In this document: positions 21,971-27,852 of the stretch, one piece after another
Position numbering within the stretch: position 1 is the stretch's first letter
Layout: each line of letters opens with the position of its first letter
Assembly (NCBI GenBank): GCA_017617935.1
Contig: JAFZVF010000104.1
Span: 1 to 64,000, forward strand
DNA: 64,000 nt
Reading direction: 5' to 3'
DNA from: Clostridiales bacterium
Lineage (GTDB): Bacteria > Bacillota > Clostridia > Saccharofermentanales > Saccharofermentanaceae
Made by a program: the position numbers and the translations under genes
The notes under the pieces: generated by a model
What the model saw: only the letters and a program-made list of their open reading frames with translations
Database searches by the model: none
What the model was told of the DNA's origin: nothing

Positions 21971-23374
21971 TTACTTCTTCCAGTTCACTCCGATATCGGC
22001 AAGTGATGTATCCATATCTGACATACCATATTCTATGCTTGCCAAGAAGTTCTCATGGTGTTCCCAAAGCTTGTCTATGATCTGATCTTTCGTGTAGTAT
22101 GTGCATCCGTCGGCTTCAAAAGACTTCTTGAGCTTGTCAATATTCGCCTTTTTCCCCCATGCATCGGATGCGATACCCTTTTTATTTGCAACACTCAGAT
22201 TGACCGATGCGTATTTCTTTAAAGATTCTTTTGATTCAAACACCTTGTCGTACTCACCGGGTTTAGCCTTTATCTCCACCCGATAGCGGTATTTCGGTGT
22301 AACGACTCCTTTACCGATAGAAATATCTTTCATATCAAACCAATATGACATAGTGACAGTGATCTTCTTTGTCTTTTTAGTTGATGCATCGTCAATATTA
22401 ACCATGAATTGTTCGGATTCATCACTATAAGCCTCAGTCGGCGAAACATAATATAGTCCAGCATACTTCTTCTTGGCTTTATTCCCGGGAACGAGTCCTG
22501 CAACATACTGCACATAATCATCGGGCTTAAGCATCGAAGCAGATTTCTGACCATATACCGAACGCCAGTCTTTTCTGGTCATGTTGCCCATAACGCCAAC
22601 AGCATTATAAAAATACTCAGTCCATGGTTTCTTGCCTTGGGTGCTGATTCCGTTCTTGTATTCAAGAGTTTTAGTGACTGCTTTATCGAAGCTCATCAGC
22701 TGCGCAGGATCAACCGCTCTGTATTTTGTACCCAGATTAATACCAAGGTCCTCAAGTTTGAGACCCAGCTCAGGAAAAGCCTTATCCGCTAATGCTATGA
22801 ACCTGGAATAGAATATCGGAAGATCTTTTTTTATGTCTTCCTTATGATCCACATAGGCAGATCTGTTGGAATACTGTATATATGTGCCTGAATCGTCAAT
22901 AAGATCGTCAATGAATCTTTCAATATTGTCTATAACGGGATCTCCGCTTCCGCTTAAGCGCTGGTCTTCTTTATAGATCAAGTCAAAAGATATTTCCGCG
23001 GTACGCTTACCGGATCTAAGACGGACATCGAACGTTGATCCGTTGCTTAACGCATAACTAAAGCGCAGGACACCGTCGTCAACAGAATAATTCCCGCCGC
23101 CTCTGACACCATCAGCATAGATCCAGACCGAGTTCTTTCCTTCCGGTTCTTTGGAAGCATAAAGATCCGCAACCTTCTTCATGTTGTCCACGTTGATCTC
23201 AGGATCTGCCTTCGTTTGAGAAGGCTCAGTCTCAGAGGCCGTAGTGTTCGTGGTCGCTTCCGTCTGAGTTGTCGACTCTGTTGTTGCCGACGTTTCAGTC
23301 ACCTGGTTGCAACCGCAAAGAATGAATGATGACGCCAAAGCAGCGCAAAGCAATTTTGTTACGAGTTTTTTCAT
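21971..23374 (-). CDS. Predicted lipoprotein, paralog A
   Basis: A 467-residue lipoprotein with lipobox LCGC (acylated Cys near residue 22), a Thr/Ser/Glu-rich linker (about 25-60) and a large extracellular domain of unknown type. It shares the end (GVNWKK), the EINVDN motif after the linker, LGTKYR and KNGIS with its neighbour 23460-24854, so the pair arose by tandem duplication. Function not recognised; a solute-binding or surface role is possible. Its leader resembles that of paralog B but no promoter is obvious, so read-through from paralog B is likely. The ribosome site is GGGGGA. Confidence 0.78.
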   Translation of the reverse strand: MKKLVTKLLCAALASSFILCGCNQVTETSATTESTTQTEATTNTTASETEPSQTKADPEINVDNMKKVADLYASKEPEGKNSVWIYADGVRGGGNYSVDDGVLRFSYALSNGSTFDVRLRSGKRTAEISFDLIYKEDQRLSGSGDPVIDNIERFIDDLIDDSGTYIQYSNRSAYVDHKEDIKKDLPIFYSRFIALADKAFPELGLKLEDLGINLGTKYRAVDPAQLMSFDKAVTKTLEYKNGISTQGKKPWTEYFYNAVGVMGNMTRKDWRSVYGQKSASMLKPDDYVQYVAGLVPGNKAKKKYAGLYYVSPTEAYSDESEQFMVNIDDASTKKTKKITVTMSYWFDMKDISIGKGVVTPKYRYRVEIKAKPGEYDKVFESKESLKKYASVNLSVANKKGIASDAWGKKANIDKLKKSFEADGCTYYTKDQIIDKLWEHHENFLASIEYGMSDMDTSLADIGVNWKK

Positions 23375-23459
23375 TTTTCAATCCCCCTTAATCTTAAAAA
23401 ACTCTATCCCTAACATGGCCATATCCCGGGAACCGTCTCGGGACAAGTCATCAACCGTT

Positions 23460-24854
23460 TTACTTCTTCCAGTTAACGCCTATATCTGAAAGTGAAGTAC
23501 CCATTCCGGACAAACCGTGATCAAGGCTTGCCAGGAAGTTCTCATGATGTTCCCAAAGAATATCGATCAGTTCATTCTGGGTATAGTATTTGCATCCGTC
23601 AGCTTCAAAAGACTTCTTCATTTTGTCATTAAACGCCTTTTTACCTGACAAAGATTTTATCTTACCCTTCTTGTTGCTGAGAAGCAGTTGGACTTTGACG
23701 TATTTCTTAAGAGATTCCTTTGACTCAAAAACCTTGCCGTATTGACCGGGTGCAGCTGATATCGTTACCCAATAAGTATATTTCGAAGTGTAGATTCCTT
23801 TCCCGAGAGAAATGTCCTTCTGGTATAACTCATAGCGCATTGAAACGCTAACCTTCTTTTTCTTTTTTGTTGAAGTGTTATTCACGTAAATCCAAAATGA
23901 TTCGCCAGGTTCCTTAGCGTCGTCAGACATCTTGTGATATAACATCTCACCGTACTTCTTATCGGTTGCGGAATACTGAACGTAGTCATTCTGTGTGAGC
24001 ATCGATGAGGATTTCTCGCCGTATGCCGAATGCCAGCCTTTGCCGGTCATGCCGCCCAACTTGCCGACGGCGTTATAGTAGAACTCCGTCCAAACCTTCT
24101 TCTTATTTGCACTTACGCCGTTTTTATAAGTATTAGGATTGGCAACCGTTGTCTCCATGCTGGTCGTCTGCGTATAATCGACCGATCTGTATTTGGTGCC
24201 AAGCCTGACGCCGAGATCTTCATACTTAAGGCCGAGTTCAGGGAAAGCCTGGTCAGCATAAGCAATAAACCTTGCATATAAGATCGGCAGATCCTTCTTT
24301 ACCTGCTCAGCATAAGCATCCAAAGTCATATCGTTGTAGATGTGGAATTTTTCCTTTTCATTCGCGATTACGGCATCGATGAAAGACTCCAATCCATCTA
24401 TCGAAGTTTGACCGGTCAATAGAATATTCGTCTTCATGCCCTTGAAGTCCAAACTCAAAGTAACGTCCATCGTACGCTTTCCTGACAGGATGCTTGTCGA
24501 GATCGATGAACCGTAGCCTGAATGATATCCAAAATGTACTGAGCCATCACCATTTACATGGTACATGGCAGAGCCTCTTATACCATCAGTCTTAATGGTT
24601 ACCGCATGAGAACCGTCAGGCTCTTTGGATTTATAAAGATCCGTGACCTTTATCACGTTGTCCACGTTGATCTCCGGACGGTCATCCACCGTAGTCTGAA
24701 CCGGCTCCGTCTCGGCCGTGGTCGTGGTCACTTCCGTCTGAGTTTCAGTCTCACTTGTAACTGTAGCCGTCGGTTCAGTTGCCTGATTGCAACCGCAAAG
24801 TACGACTGATGACAGCAAGATTCCGCAAAGCAGTTTTGATACGAGTTTTTTCAT
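23460..24854 (-). CDS. Predicted lipoprotein, paralog B
   Basis: Paralog of the downstream gene: 464 residues, identical start MKKLV-KLLC-type signal, lipobox LCGC, Thr/Glu-rich linker, the EINVDN motif, and shared blocks such as AFPELGLKYEDLGVRLGTKY and WEHHENFLASL near the C-terminus. No enzymatic motif was found. It is the promoter-proximal member of the pair, with a TTGCCA-N17-TATTAT promoter about 94 bases upstream and an AAGGAGG ribosome site. Both copies appear intact, which suggests each is kept by selection. Confidence 0.78.
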   Translation of the reverse strand: MKKLVSKLLCGILLSSVVLCGCNQATEPTATVTSETETQTEVTTTTAETEPVQTTVDDRPEINVDNVIKVTDLYKSKEPDGSHAVTIKTDGIRGSAMYHVNGDGSVHFGYHSGYGSSISTSILSGKRTMDVTLSLDFKGMKTNILLTGQTSIDGLESFIDAVIANEKEKFHIYNDMTLDAYAEQVKKDLPILYARFIAYADQAFPELGLKYEDLGVRLGTKYRSVDYTQTTSMETTVANPNTYKNGVSANKKKVWTEFYYNAVGKLGGMTGKGWHSAYGEKSSSMLTQNDYVQYSATDKKYGEMLYHKMSDDAKEPGESFWIYVNNTSTKKKKKVSVSMRYELYQKDISLGKGIYTSKYTYWVTISAAPGQYGKVFESKESLKKYVKVQLLLSNKKGKIKSLSGKKAFNDKMKKSFEADGCKYYTQNELIDILWEHHENFLASLDHGLSGMGTSLSDIGVNWKK

Positions 24855-25078: not shown

Positions 25079-26305
25079 TTACATCCGCAGACCAGACATA
25101 GGAACGATAAGCGAAAAGACGCATTCTTCGCCTTGGTTTGCGCACATGAGGACGTAGATCCTCTTACCGTTTACATCGTTCAAAACTCCATTAAAAGTCG
25201 AAAAACCCGCCGTGCTTCCGCCATGTAAGATCCACTCATCCATCTGCTGCCAGCCGAAGCCGTAATCATCGACGAAATTCATCATCTCATTCATAGATCC
25301 CTCGCTCAGGAGATAACCTCCGAACAAGGCTCTGTGGTACTTAAGAAGATCGACCACGGATGAATGAACGTCGCCACAGCCTTTGCTTGAATTAAACTCG
25401 TTATACCATGCGTTTTTCTTTATCGAAGCCTGAACGTTTCCGTTTTTCATACAAGTCGTATCGGTCATGCCGCAGGGTTTGAAAACGGTCTCTTCCATGA
25501 ATCTGGCGTAAGACATGCCGCTCTTCTTTTCGATGATCTCGGCAAGGAGCGTGTAATTCGTATTCGAATAATCAAACTTTTTGTCCTGCTCAAAGGCGGG
25601 TTTCCTGCAAAACGCCTGTTCCACTATCTTGTCGCCGTACTTATCGAAAAAGCCATTGAAACCCTCTTCTGTGACAAGGCCCATGCCGGCGAGCTCAGAA
25701 CCCGTTTCTTCGCCCCAGAAACCCGCCGGATCATTGACGAAATCGTGAATGCCCGAACGCATGCGCAAAAGGTTCCTGACCGTAATCGGGGCAACCTCGC
25801 TGTAGAAAGGGCATGAACCGTATTCGGGGAAGAAATCGCCCAGCGTATCGTCAAGCTTTATCTTTCCGTCTTCAACAAGCTTCATGATGCATACGGCGGT
25901 CATGGACTTGGTTACGGAACCGATCTCGTACGTCGTATGCGGAGTGACTTCGTTACCGTCCCTGTCCTTAAGACGCGTACCGGAAGCCAGGATGACGTCA
26001 TCATCCGTCGCAATGATTATGGATCCCCTGACACTGACGTTATCCTTTATCTGGTTTCTGAGCTTCCCAAGTTTAACCTTATACTGCTCGTCTTCGTTGA
26101 TCCAGATATTTCCCTCTATATTATTGAGCTTCTTTATCTGTTCATCTACATTGAGAAGTTCCCGGGGAATCTCCCTCTTGGTCTGCTGCGCCGTCTCACT
26201 TGTCGTTGCTTCGTGCTTGGCTTCTGAACAAGACGGCAGACATGATGCCATCATGACGCAGGCAAGCAAAAGGCAAAGCGTTTTTCTGATACGTACGGAT
26301 TTCAT
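25079..26305 (-). CDS. Serine hydrolase lipoprotein, beta-lactamase class C fold
   Basis: A 408-residue exported lipoprotein (lipobox LPSC near residue 26) of the class C beta-lactamase / D-Ala-D-Ala peptidase fold. Catalytic SxxK is SVTK in YEIGSVTKSM (about residue 117) and the YxN motif is YSN in KFDYSNTNYTLLAEI (about 225); near the C-terminus LHGGSTAGF replaces the KTG box. Such proteins may act as esterases, peptidases or true beta-lactamases; the fold does not tell which. The ATG at 26305 starts a proper signal peptide, whereas in-frame sequence upstream adds non-signal residues. It follows the MFS gene by 38 bases and may share its regulated transcript. Confidence 0.88.
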   Translation of the reverse strand: MKSVRIRKTLCLLLACVMMASCLPSCSEAKHEATTSETAQQTKREIPRELLNVDEQIKKLNNIEGNIWINEDEQYKVKLGKLRNQIKDNVSVRGSIIIATDDDVILASGTRLKDRDGNEVTPHTTYEIGSVTKSMTAVCIMKLVEDGKIKLDDTLGDFFPEYGSCPFYSEVAPITVRNLLRMRSGIHDFVNDPAGFWGEETGSELAGMGLVTEEGFNGFFDKYGDKIVEQAFCRKPAFEQDKKFDYSNTNYTLLAEIIEKKSGMSYARFMEETVFKPCGMTDTTCMKNGNVQASIKKNAWYNEFNSSKGCGDVHSSVVDLLKYHRALFGGYLLSEGSMNEMMNFVDDYGFGWQQMDEWILHGGSTAGFSTFNGVLNDVNGKRIYVLMCANQGEECVFSLIVPMSGLRM

Positions 26306-26343
26306 ATAAGTCACCCCGGGTTCGTGATATCTAAATAATAACA

Positions 26344-27642
26344 CTACCCTGAATGATCCAATTCCAGGTACACCGTTTTCCTCATGCGGGTAATACTTAA
26401 CAGGACGCCGGTTATACCAACGATGAAGAATAACACTGCAATTCCTGAACCGCTGCCGGAGCCGAAAAACCTTGAAAGAACACTTTGCACCGGTGACTCT
26501 GTTTTCATAAAAGGTTCGAAAATATAATCGGCCAGATAGCCTGACAGAAGCAGTCCAACAGGATTGGTGCAGTTCTTAAGCGTATCGTGAGCCGAGAACA
26601 CCCTGCCCTGCATTTGGACCGGCACTTTCTCACGAAGGATCACCGTAAGGTTTGCCCCCATGATGACGGCCGCAGTATAACCCATGAAATTGCTGATGCT
26701 CCAGACCGCCGGATGAGCCGAAAGACTCATTACCACTTCGGTAAAACAAATAAACGCACAGGCAAGGAAAATCAATCGGGCCTTTTTCTTTACAGGCTTA
26801 AGCAATGTCATAACTATGCTGCCGATAAGGATTCCGGCAGACGTCGCGACCTGAACCATGCCCAACACCCTTTGATCATTGCCGCTCCTGCCGAGAACAA
26901 AAGGCGCCAGAAGACCGTCGTTTCCTAGTTTTGCCAGCAGATTGACAACTGCAATGAACAAAGTCAGATGAAGTAATGCTTTGTTTTCGCGCAGGAACCC
27001 GATGCCGTCCCTGCAGCTTTTGAGGAACGGCTCGTTCTCGCCATTCCCGCGTGCATTTTCGGGGATCTTGACAAGAAACAGCAGTACAAAAAACGCAACA
27101 GCAAAACTTGCCAGATCGCATATAAGAACAAGTCTCAATCCGCCTGCAACCAAAAGGATGCTTCCGAGTGCAGGTGCAAGAATAGACACTATCGAACCGG
27201 TTATTCCCTGAAGCCCGCCGATCCTTGCGTAATGCTTTTGCGGAACGATCAGGCTTATGGCAACAAAAGATGCGGATTCCTGAAAAGAATTCATGAAACT
27301 GAGAACTATATTGATAAGATAAAGATGCCATATCTCAAGCATCGAACCTGTGTGAAGACCTAACACTATAAGTGAGCCGGTGGCGGCGATCAGATCGGCC
27401 GTCAGCATGATCCGTTTCTTGTTCCTGCGGTCAACATAAGTTCCTGCGATGAATCTGAAAAGTATAGTCGGCAGGAACATGCAAAAAGCAAGCATCGTAA
27501 CGCTTGAGGCCATACCGGTCTTCTGATATGCCCAGATTACCAATGCATAATCGGTCATGGCTGTTCCAAGTTCAGATACGGTCTGTGACAGCCATAAAAG
27601 CAGAAAGCTTTTAAGTTCTTTAATTGTGGATAGTTTATTCAT
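26344..27642 (-). CDS. MFS efflux transporter with leader-peptide control
   Basis: A 432-residue major facilitator with about 12 spans, of the branch containing macrolide-type (Mef) and EntS-like exporters: WLSQTVSELGTAMTDYALVIW in span 1, and the conserved loop GTYVDRRNKKRIML between spans 2 and 3. Likely exports a drug or other small hydrophobic molecule using the proton gradient. The gene is preceded by a leader peptide ORF and competing RNA segments that include its own ribosome site GGGAGC, a layout typical of antibiotic-induced resistance genes, which strengthens the drug-efflux reading. Substrate unknown. Confidence 0.88.
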   Translation of the reverse strand: MNKLSTIKELKSFLLLWLSQTVSELGTAMTDYALVIWAYQKTGMASSVTMLAFCMFLPTILFRFIAGTYVDRRNKKRIMLTADLIAATGSLIVLGLHTGSMLEIWHLYLINIVLSFMNSFQESASFVAISLIVPQKHYARIGGLQGITGSIVSILAPALGSILLVAGGLRLVLICDLASFAVAFFVLLFLVKIPENARGNGENEPFLKSCRDGIGFLRENKALLHLTLFIAVVNLLAKLGNDGLLAPFVLGRSGNDQRVLGMVQVATSAGILIGSIVMTLLKPVKKKARLIFLACAFICFTEVVMSLSAHPAVWSISNFMGYTAAVIMGANLTVILREKVPVQMQGRVFSAHDTLKNCTNPVGLLLSGYLADYIFEPFMKTESPVQSVLSRFFGSGSGSGIAVLFFIVGITGVLLSITRMRKTVYLELDHSG

Positions 27643-27795
27643 AACTTTGCTCCCGGAATAATGATTTGATTATCCTTGCGCAAAGTCTGAGCAGACGATA
27701 CGTTATCAGTTGCTCCGTGAAGGCATCGTCTTTTAGACCTTGCGCGGAGCAATAGCATCTGCTGCTAAAGAAATTCCTCTGTCAGTATGCTCCAT
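27643..27795 (-). promoter_or_regulatory. Candidate translational attenuator of the MFS gene
   Basis: Four short segments on the minus-strand RNA: (1) GGAGCA at 27793-27788, inside the leader's first codons; (2) UUGCUCCG at 27752-27745, inside the leader's late codons; (3) CGGAGCAA at 27717-27710; (4) GGGAGCAA at 27654-27647, the ribosome site of the MFS gene. Segment 2 is complementary to 1 (6 bp), 3 (8 bp) and 4 (7 bp). In addition the leader's last codons (GCGCAAGGUCU) can pair over 11 bases, one a G-U, with AGACUUUGCGC at 27691-27681, and AGACGAU with AUCGUCU inside that stem. A ribosome stalled on the leader would change which pairing of segment 2 is available and so open or close segment 4. 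Confidence 0.6.
27733..27795 (-). CDS. Regulatory leader peptide (20 aa) upstream of MFS gene
   Basis: A 20-codon ORF, beginning MEHTDRGISL and ending APRKV, with an AGAGGA ribosome site nine bases before its ATG. It starts about 42 bases after the predicted transcription start and ends 90 bases before the MFS ATG. Its codons 14-17 contain the segment that is complementary to the MFS ribosome site, so its translation should affect MFS translation. The peptide itself shows no known stalling motif by eye, although the Arg-Lys near its end recalls basic residues in some macrolide stall peptides. Short ORFs arise by chance, so the call rests on the combined layout. Confidence 0.6.
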   Translation of the reverse strand: MEHTDRGISLAADAIAPRKV

Positions 27796-27843
27796 ATATT
27801 TATATCCTCTTATTCAACTTAAAGTTCATAGTCTAACGCCTTC

Positions 27844-27852
27844 ATTGTACCA
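27844..27852 (-). promoter_or_regulatory. Extended -10 promoter of the leader-MFS transcript
   Basis: TGGTACAAT (27852-27844) is an extended -10 element. It predicts a start near 27837 and a leader of about 195 bases. No clear -35. Confidence 0.55.

Follow-up and report, generated by a model that had tools for sequence, protein, structure and literature searches.

A leader ORF with competing RNA helices, probably an antibiotic-responsive translational attenuator, precedes a Mef-like efflux gene and other genes in Clostridia

The region upstream of a Mef-like MFS transporter gene in a Clostridiales genome is very likely a ribosome-mediated translational attenuator, which would free the efflux gene when an antibiotic stalls the ribosome at codon 12–13 of a short leader ORF. 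The inducer is probably a ribosome-targeting antibiotic acting at the peptidyl-transferase centre (PTC); we infer both the induction and the identity of the drug. We conclude that the element represents a new, widespread family within a known kind of switch. A first-pass annotation of the window (the whole 64,000-nt stretch of DNA that was analysed) had proposed a leader-peptide attenuator at this place, and the observation is genuine and larger than first described.

All features of the locus lie on the minus strand. The extended −10 promoter element that had been proposed (TGgTACAAT, 27844–27852) was borne out, as was the leader ORF, MEHTDRGISLAADAIAPRKV (27733–27795; 20 codons, 21 with the stop), with its Shine-Dalgarno sequence (SD) AGAGGA at 27805–27810. 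Comparable −10 elements, judged by eye, lie upstream of several relatives' leaders, and SDs are present before the leader in relatives too. The MFS gene (26344–27642) has its start codon at 27642 and the SD GGGAGC at about 27654–27649. Its product matches MFS_1, and also TIGR00900 (195 bits) and the Mef models, in each of the latter below the cut-off. Against the Mef(A) model the protein scores 108.9 bits, short of the curated cut-off of 675 for the Mef macrolide efflux pumps. A PF00144 beta-lactamase-fold lipoprotein gene (25079–26344) starts close behind the MFS gene; its suggested co-induction finds no support in conserved linkage, since in the examined relatives the two genes are not neighbours. 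Farther along, at 21971–24854, the window encodes two tandem paralogous lipoproteins of 467 and 464 aa.

The 218-nt RNA folds at −59.1 kcal/mol (z −4.2), and none of 200 shuffled sequences folded as well. Six segments are kept in the same order in relatives across Clostridia: 1 (leader 3′ end), a, 2, a′, 3, and 4 (MFS SD). Segment 1 (GCUCCGCGCAAGGUCU, 27735–27750) runs from the last leader codons into the stop and switches between segments 2 and 3. Segment 2 (CUUCACGGAG, 27713–27722; its CGGAGC lies within 27712–27722) is the OFF-fold partner of segment 1, while segment 3 (CAGACUUUGCGC, 27678–27689, with AGACUUUGCGC at 27678–27688) pairs with segment 1 in the ON fold or with segment 4 in the OFF fold. 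Segment 4 (GGAGCAAAGU, 27644–27653) comprises the MFS SD and spacer; in the OFF fold, segment 3 masks it. Segments a (AGACGA, 27726–27731) and a′ (UCGUCU, 27693–27698) pair with each other in the ON fold. The numbered segments rest on covariation, and a and a′ on the pair counts and covariation of a:a′.

A register scan and pair counts on an alignment of 34 sequences (A1) defined three helices. Helix 1:2 has 10 pairs; 3:4 has 7 and takes in the final base of the SD together with the spacer; 1:3, again with 10 pairs, encloses hairpin a:a′. In A1, the fold 1:2 plus 3:4, in which the SD is masked, is 92% paired, with ten double-change pairs and 63 cells against 16.9 in shuffled alignments. The fold 1:3 plus a:a′, in which segment 3 does not hold the SD, is 91.6% paired, with nine pairs and 38 double-change cells against 10.7. 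On a second alignment (A2), which was fitted to 1:2 and 3:4 only and thus built without 1:3, the latter helix still showed 38 double-change cells against 6.4 shuffled. Segment 1 is shared by helices 1:2 and 1:3, and segment 3 by 1:3 and 3:4; the two folds are therefore mutually exclusive, and both are under selection. Mutually exclusive folds, one masking the SD, mark a ribosome-mediated translational attenuator. So does a short leader ORF with its own SD upstream of the regulated gene, a feature to which the conserved ORF and its synonymous variation point.

It should be noted that the unconstrained minimum-energy fold of the window is 1:3 plus 1:4, not 1:2 plus 3:4; the SD is masked there too. 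The pairings listed in the first-pass annotation were partly wrong, and segment 3, hairpin a:a′, and helix 3:4 had been overlooked. The pairing stressed there, between the CUCC of segment 1 and the transporter SD (GGGAGCAA), is always possible (1:4 is 96% paired), yet it shows no covariation. A pairing with the leader start (GGAGC, codons 1–3) is not conserved, with relatives beginning AUGGUACAC, AUGAAACAU, or AUGAAACUU. In place of the supposed mid-leader partner, the conserved one is segment 2, located past the leader stop.

Orthologues were gathered from the window's own family and from named clostridial genomes. Nearly all have an ORF of 12–28 codons just before the gene, followed by the same order of segments. 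Each of the 32 genomes of the family whose MFS match reaches E ≤ 1e-40 also has a hit to the covariance model R1, many of them having been used to build it; the window, likewise among the building sequences, matches with an E of about 1e-14. The element is absent in one Lachnospiraceae relative (L048), in several distant MFS relatives, archaeal ones included, and upstream of a CatA relative on a Pusillibacter plasmid. A lack of conservation of the ORF and pairings had been named beforehand as refuting; instead, the ORF, the peptide, and the competing helices are kept with compensatory changes, and this supports the reading as a translational attenuator. A DNA search with the element returned the window itself and one 43-nt chance-like match. 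Rfam placed no family on the window element, even at permissive thresholds (E ≤ 5), none of 12 related loci matched at the gathering score, and no description of the element was found in the open-licence literature.

The position of the stall was modelled by masking a ribosome footprint at each leader codon in 50 elements and computing pair probabilities. Helix probabilities served as the read-out, SD accessibility over 4 nt having been discarded as poor. The second fold was favoured only by stalls 3–4 codons before GCUCC. In the model, only with the P-site codon 10–13 nt before CUCC does 1:2 collapse, can 1:3 form, and does 3:4 open. There, the probability of 3:4 falls to 0.29–0.48, from about 0.9 at later codons, and one codon later it is back at 0.79–0.90. 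In the frame-0 group with the P site at −12, the modelled probabilities were 0.77 for 1:3 and 0.08 for 3:4. For the window, the modelled opening stall lies at codons 10–13 for footprints of +13 to +17, and the opening is moderate, the free fraction of the start region going from 0.43 to 0.66 in the thermodynamic model. As a positive control, ermC opened from around codon 8–9 in the same calculation; the known ermC stall codon is codon 9.

The peptide points to the same place. In the window subgroup, five of codons 3–13 (HTDRGISLAAD) vary, all synonymously, against a chance fraction of about 0.24, whereas codons 2, 14, and 15 change freely. In the sister subgroup, three changes are synonymous and one exchanges Ser and Ala. 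Since codons 3–13 vary synonymously only and codons 14 and 15 freely, peptide conservation ends at Asp13 (27757–27759), the very codon that RNA folding alone places in the P site and the predicted P-site codon of the inducing stall.

We propose that, when the drug is absent, the leader would be either freely translated or untranslated, segment 1 would pair with 2 (or with 3 and 4, as in the window's own minimum-energy fold), and segment 3 would pair with 4, masking the MFS start site. In its presence, a ribosome arrested with leader codon 12–13 (Ala/Asp) in the P site would cover GCUCC and block 1:2 and 1:4, leaving the 3′ half of segment 1 free. This half, together with hairpin a:a′, would then pair with segment 3, segment 4 would be released, and the efflux pump would be translated; presumably, the pump then exports the inducer.

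The residue preceding the predicted P-site codon may tell which drug is sensed. Among 67 distinct leaders that share a frame, 65 were counted at codon −4 (A12 in the window), which encodes the penultimate residue of the stalled chain: Cys occurs in 33, Ala in 13, Thr in 4, Gly in 2, and Ser in 1 (82% small). At other unpaired positions close by in the upstream leader, small residues make up 6–23% (−8 to −5, −3, and −1), or 45% at −2; positions 0 and +2 fall inside segment 1. At −4 they are encoded by several codon families. Ribosome stalling by chloramphenicol and linezolid is strongest when the penultimate residue is Ala, followed by Ser or Thr (PMC8987054), and the pattern read from our leaders is reminiscent of this rule. 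A phenicol-like drug is our tentative first guess for the inducer, a best guess and not a demonstration, because Cys, the commonest residue at −4, is outside the reported A/S/T list. The MLCHxxIDLS leaders and those associated with CD3324-family genes have no small residue before the predicted stall codon and read segment 1 in another frame; their inducing drug may differ from that of the rest. Two further codons were seen to be biased. At codon −3 of frame-1 elements, Ile is AUU in 34/35 and AUC in none (MFS genes use AUU in 43%), and codon −2 is GNN in 66/67 leaders, a constraint at the codon or RNA level.

A survey of genomes, partly metagenome-assembled, detected elements with covariance models across many clostridial genera. 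R1 matched 33/188 genomes of the order, 23/391 of the class, and 6/398 of the phylum sample, and R2 matched 45/117 genomes of one other clostridial family, with several copies in some. The next gene in 95 loci encodes a CD3324-family small protein (42), an MFS transporter (31), or a CatA-like protein (2); the remaining loci include five ABC-F genes and one Cfr gene, and further copies were cut by the gene finder. Behind elements, curated models confirmed an Lsa, which scores 767 bits against a cut-off of 750, and a Cfr, with 624 bits against 550. The CatA-like protein scored 210, below its cut-off of 270, and retains the HHxxxDG motif; a Vat-like gene (locus L116) is separated from its element by a small gene. 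Since the elements also precede CatA-like, Lsa-family ABC-F, Cfr, and Vat-like genes, antibiotic control is supported indirectly, and the downstream set is that expected under an antibiotic-inducible switch.

The CD3324-family HTH proteins, of about 90 aa, are encoded directly behind their elements (loci L110–L183). The genes that often come next encode an acetyltransferase (Vat-like, GNAT), a metallo-hydrolase, an ABC-F-like protein, a methyltransferase, a nucleotidyltransferase, or a kinase; these assignments were made by eye, apart from that of the Vat-like protein in L116. These CD3324-led sets are candidate uncharacterised inducible resistance cassettes. Three other arrangements were observed. 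On one contig, two separate attenuators belong to a Cfr gene and to an Lsa-type ABC-F gene upstream of it (L178 and L179). Elsewhere, an attenuator lies directly before a PF00144-type serine hydrolase with the same fold as the window's lipoprotein (L173), and another is joined to a C-terminal remnant of an MFS gene, apparently through a deletion (L115). We lean, with some reserve, towards a single evolutionary family over Clostridia, modularly attached to MFS, CatA-like, Lsa ABC-F, Cfr, Vat-like, and CD3324-led cassettes, in which the RNA segments are kept whatever frame crosses them and the pre-stall leader codons are exchanged so as to adjust drug specificity. Per-genome E-values of the distant members (CD3324, Lsa, Cfr) run from 1e-8 to 1e-4, compatible with common descent and with convergence.

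The downstream genes also bear on a variant of the same switch, in which the window's inducer is a macrolide-type drug sensed in the exit tunnel by HTDRGISLAAD. Among named resistance pumps, the MFS protein is nearest to the macrolide Mef models, and conservation spans about 10 residues leading up to the stall codon, as opposed to the short local motif of 12-codon leaders. However, at 109 against 675 bits the Mef similarity is far under the cut-off, Ala occupies position −4 in the window group too, which fits the A/S/T rule, and the CatA-like, Lsa, Cfr, and Vat-like genes behind elements act on PTC drugs. We consider a macrolide-type inducer unlikely, though worth keeping in mind.

Sensing of charged-tRNA supply through codon pausing during amino-acid starvation, as in biosynthetic operons, could account for the AUU bias at codon −3 and for the frequent Cys at −4. 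Yet the leaders have no run of a single amino acid, Cys is missing from the window leader, and C, A, T, S, and G interchange at −4; moreover, the downstream genes are for efflux and antibiotic resistance, not biosynthesis, and we regard this explanation as highly improbable. Equally improbable is that the ORF is incidental to a ligand-binding riboswitch or to a structured RNA bound by a protein. The strong structure and covariation would suit this reading, and the different frames across segment 1 between groups indicate that this segment is conserved as RNA. Nevertheless, the unpaired upstream half of the leader changes synonymously only, the leaders carry SDs, the modelled footprint falls where peptide conservation stops, and Rfam gave no match. 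Least probable of all is transcription attenuation with hairpin 3:4 as an intrinsic terminator: although the cplR and vmlR leaders join a terminator with SD masking (PMC10201436), no terminator-like site was called in 27640–27760, and helix 3:4 holds the SD, followed by the start codon and no U tract.

Translational attenuation by a stalled leader ribosome has several known counterparts. In Gram-positives, Clostridia included, uORF stalling controls the PTC-resistance genes cplR, vmlR, and lsaA through uORFs of 3–4 codons (MRI, MIN, MAGN) (PMC10201436, PMC9226507); clostridial cplR combines the MRI uORF with a terminator (PMC10201436). The elements described here instead have at least 12 codons, no terminator, and the conserved segments 1/2/3/4. 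The toiL uORF of E. coli topAI senses several ribosome-targeting drugs, relieving downstream repression, but it differs in organism, sequence, and target gene and is not induced by chloramphenicol (PMC12121999). With ermC/ermCL of pE194, the window element shares a short leader ORF, competing helices, and a masked SD of the downstream gene, which a stalled ribosome frees in ermC and is predicted to free here. Its leader peptide is unrelated (ermCL is MGIFSIFVIS), and in the window element the 3′ end of the leader ORF does the switching, pairing with 2 or 3, while a:a′ forms a nested hairpin. R2 found no match in pE194, which places the element outside the ermC/ermCL family, and none in pC194 cat or the catA7/catA8 plasmid loci tested. 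The cat-86 and cmlA leader attenuators are chloramphenicol-inducible and have a phenicol-type stall context, A/S/T before the P-site residue, with Asp at the P site in both (MVKTD in cat-86, KNAD in cmlA). The window's AAD agrees with both points, with Ala before an Asp at the predicted P site; the RNA architecture is different.

Known antibiotic-sensing attenuators have mostly been described gene by gene. Here, one architecture detectable with a covariance model stands before Mef-like, CatA-like, Lsa, and Cfr genes as well as dozens of uncharacterised clostridial gene sets. The leader peptides form a natural series for probing the nascent-chain rules of PTC antibiotics, such as whether a Cys at −1 can stand in for Ala, and drug-inducible reporters could be obtained from the element. 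To our knowledge, inducible resistance is poorly known in Clostridia, and the element offers a sequence handle for locating such genes. As a modular family with frame-independent RNA segments, the switch, if our reading is true, would be usable as a marker for unknown resistance genes.
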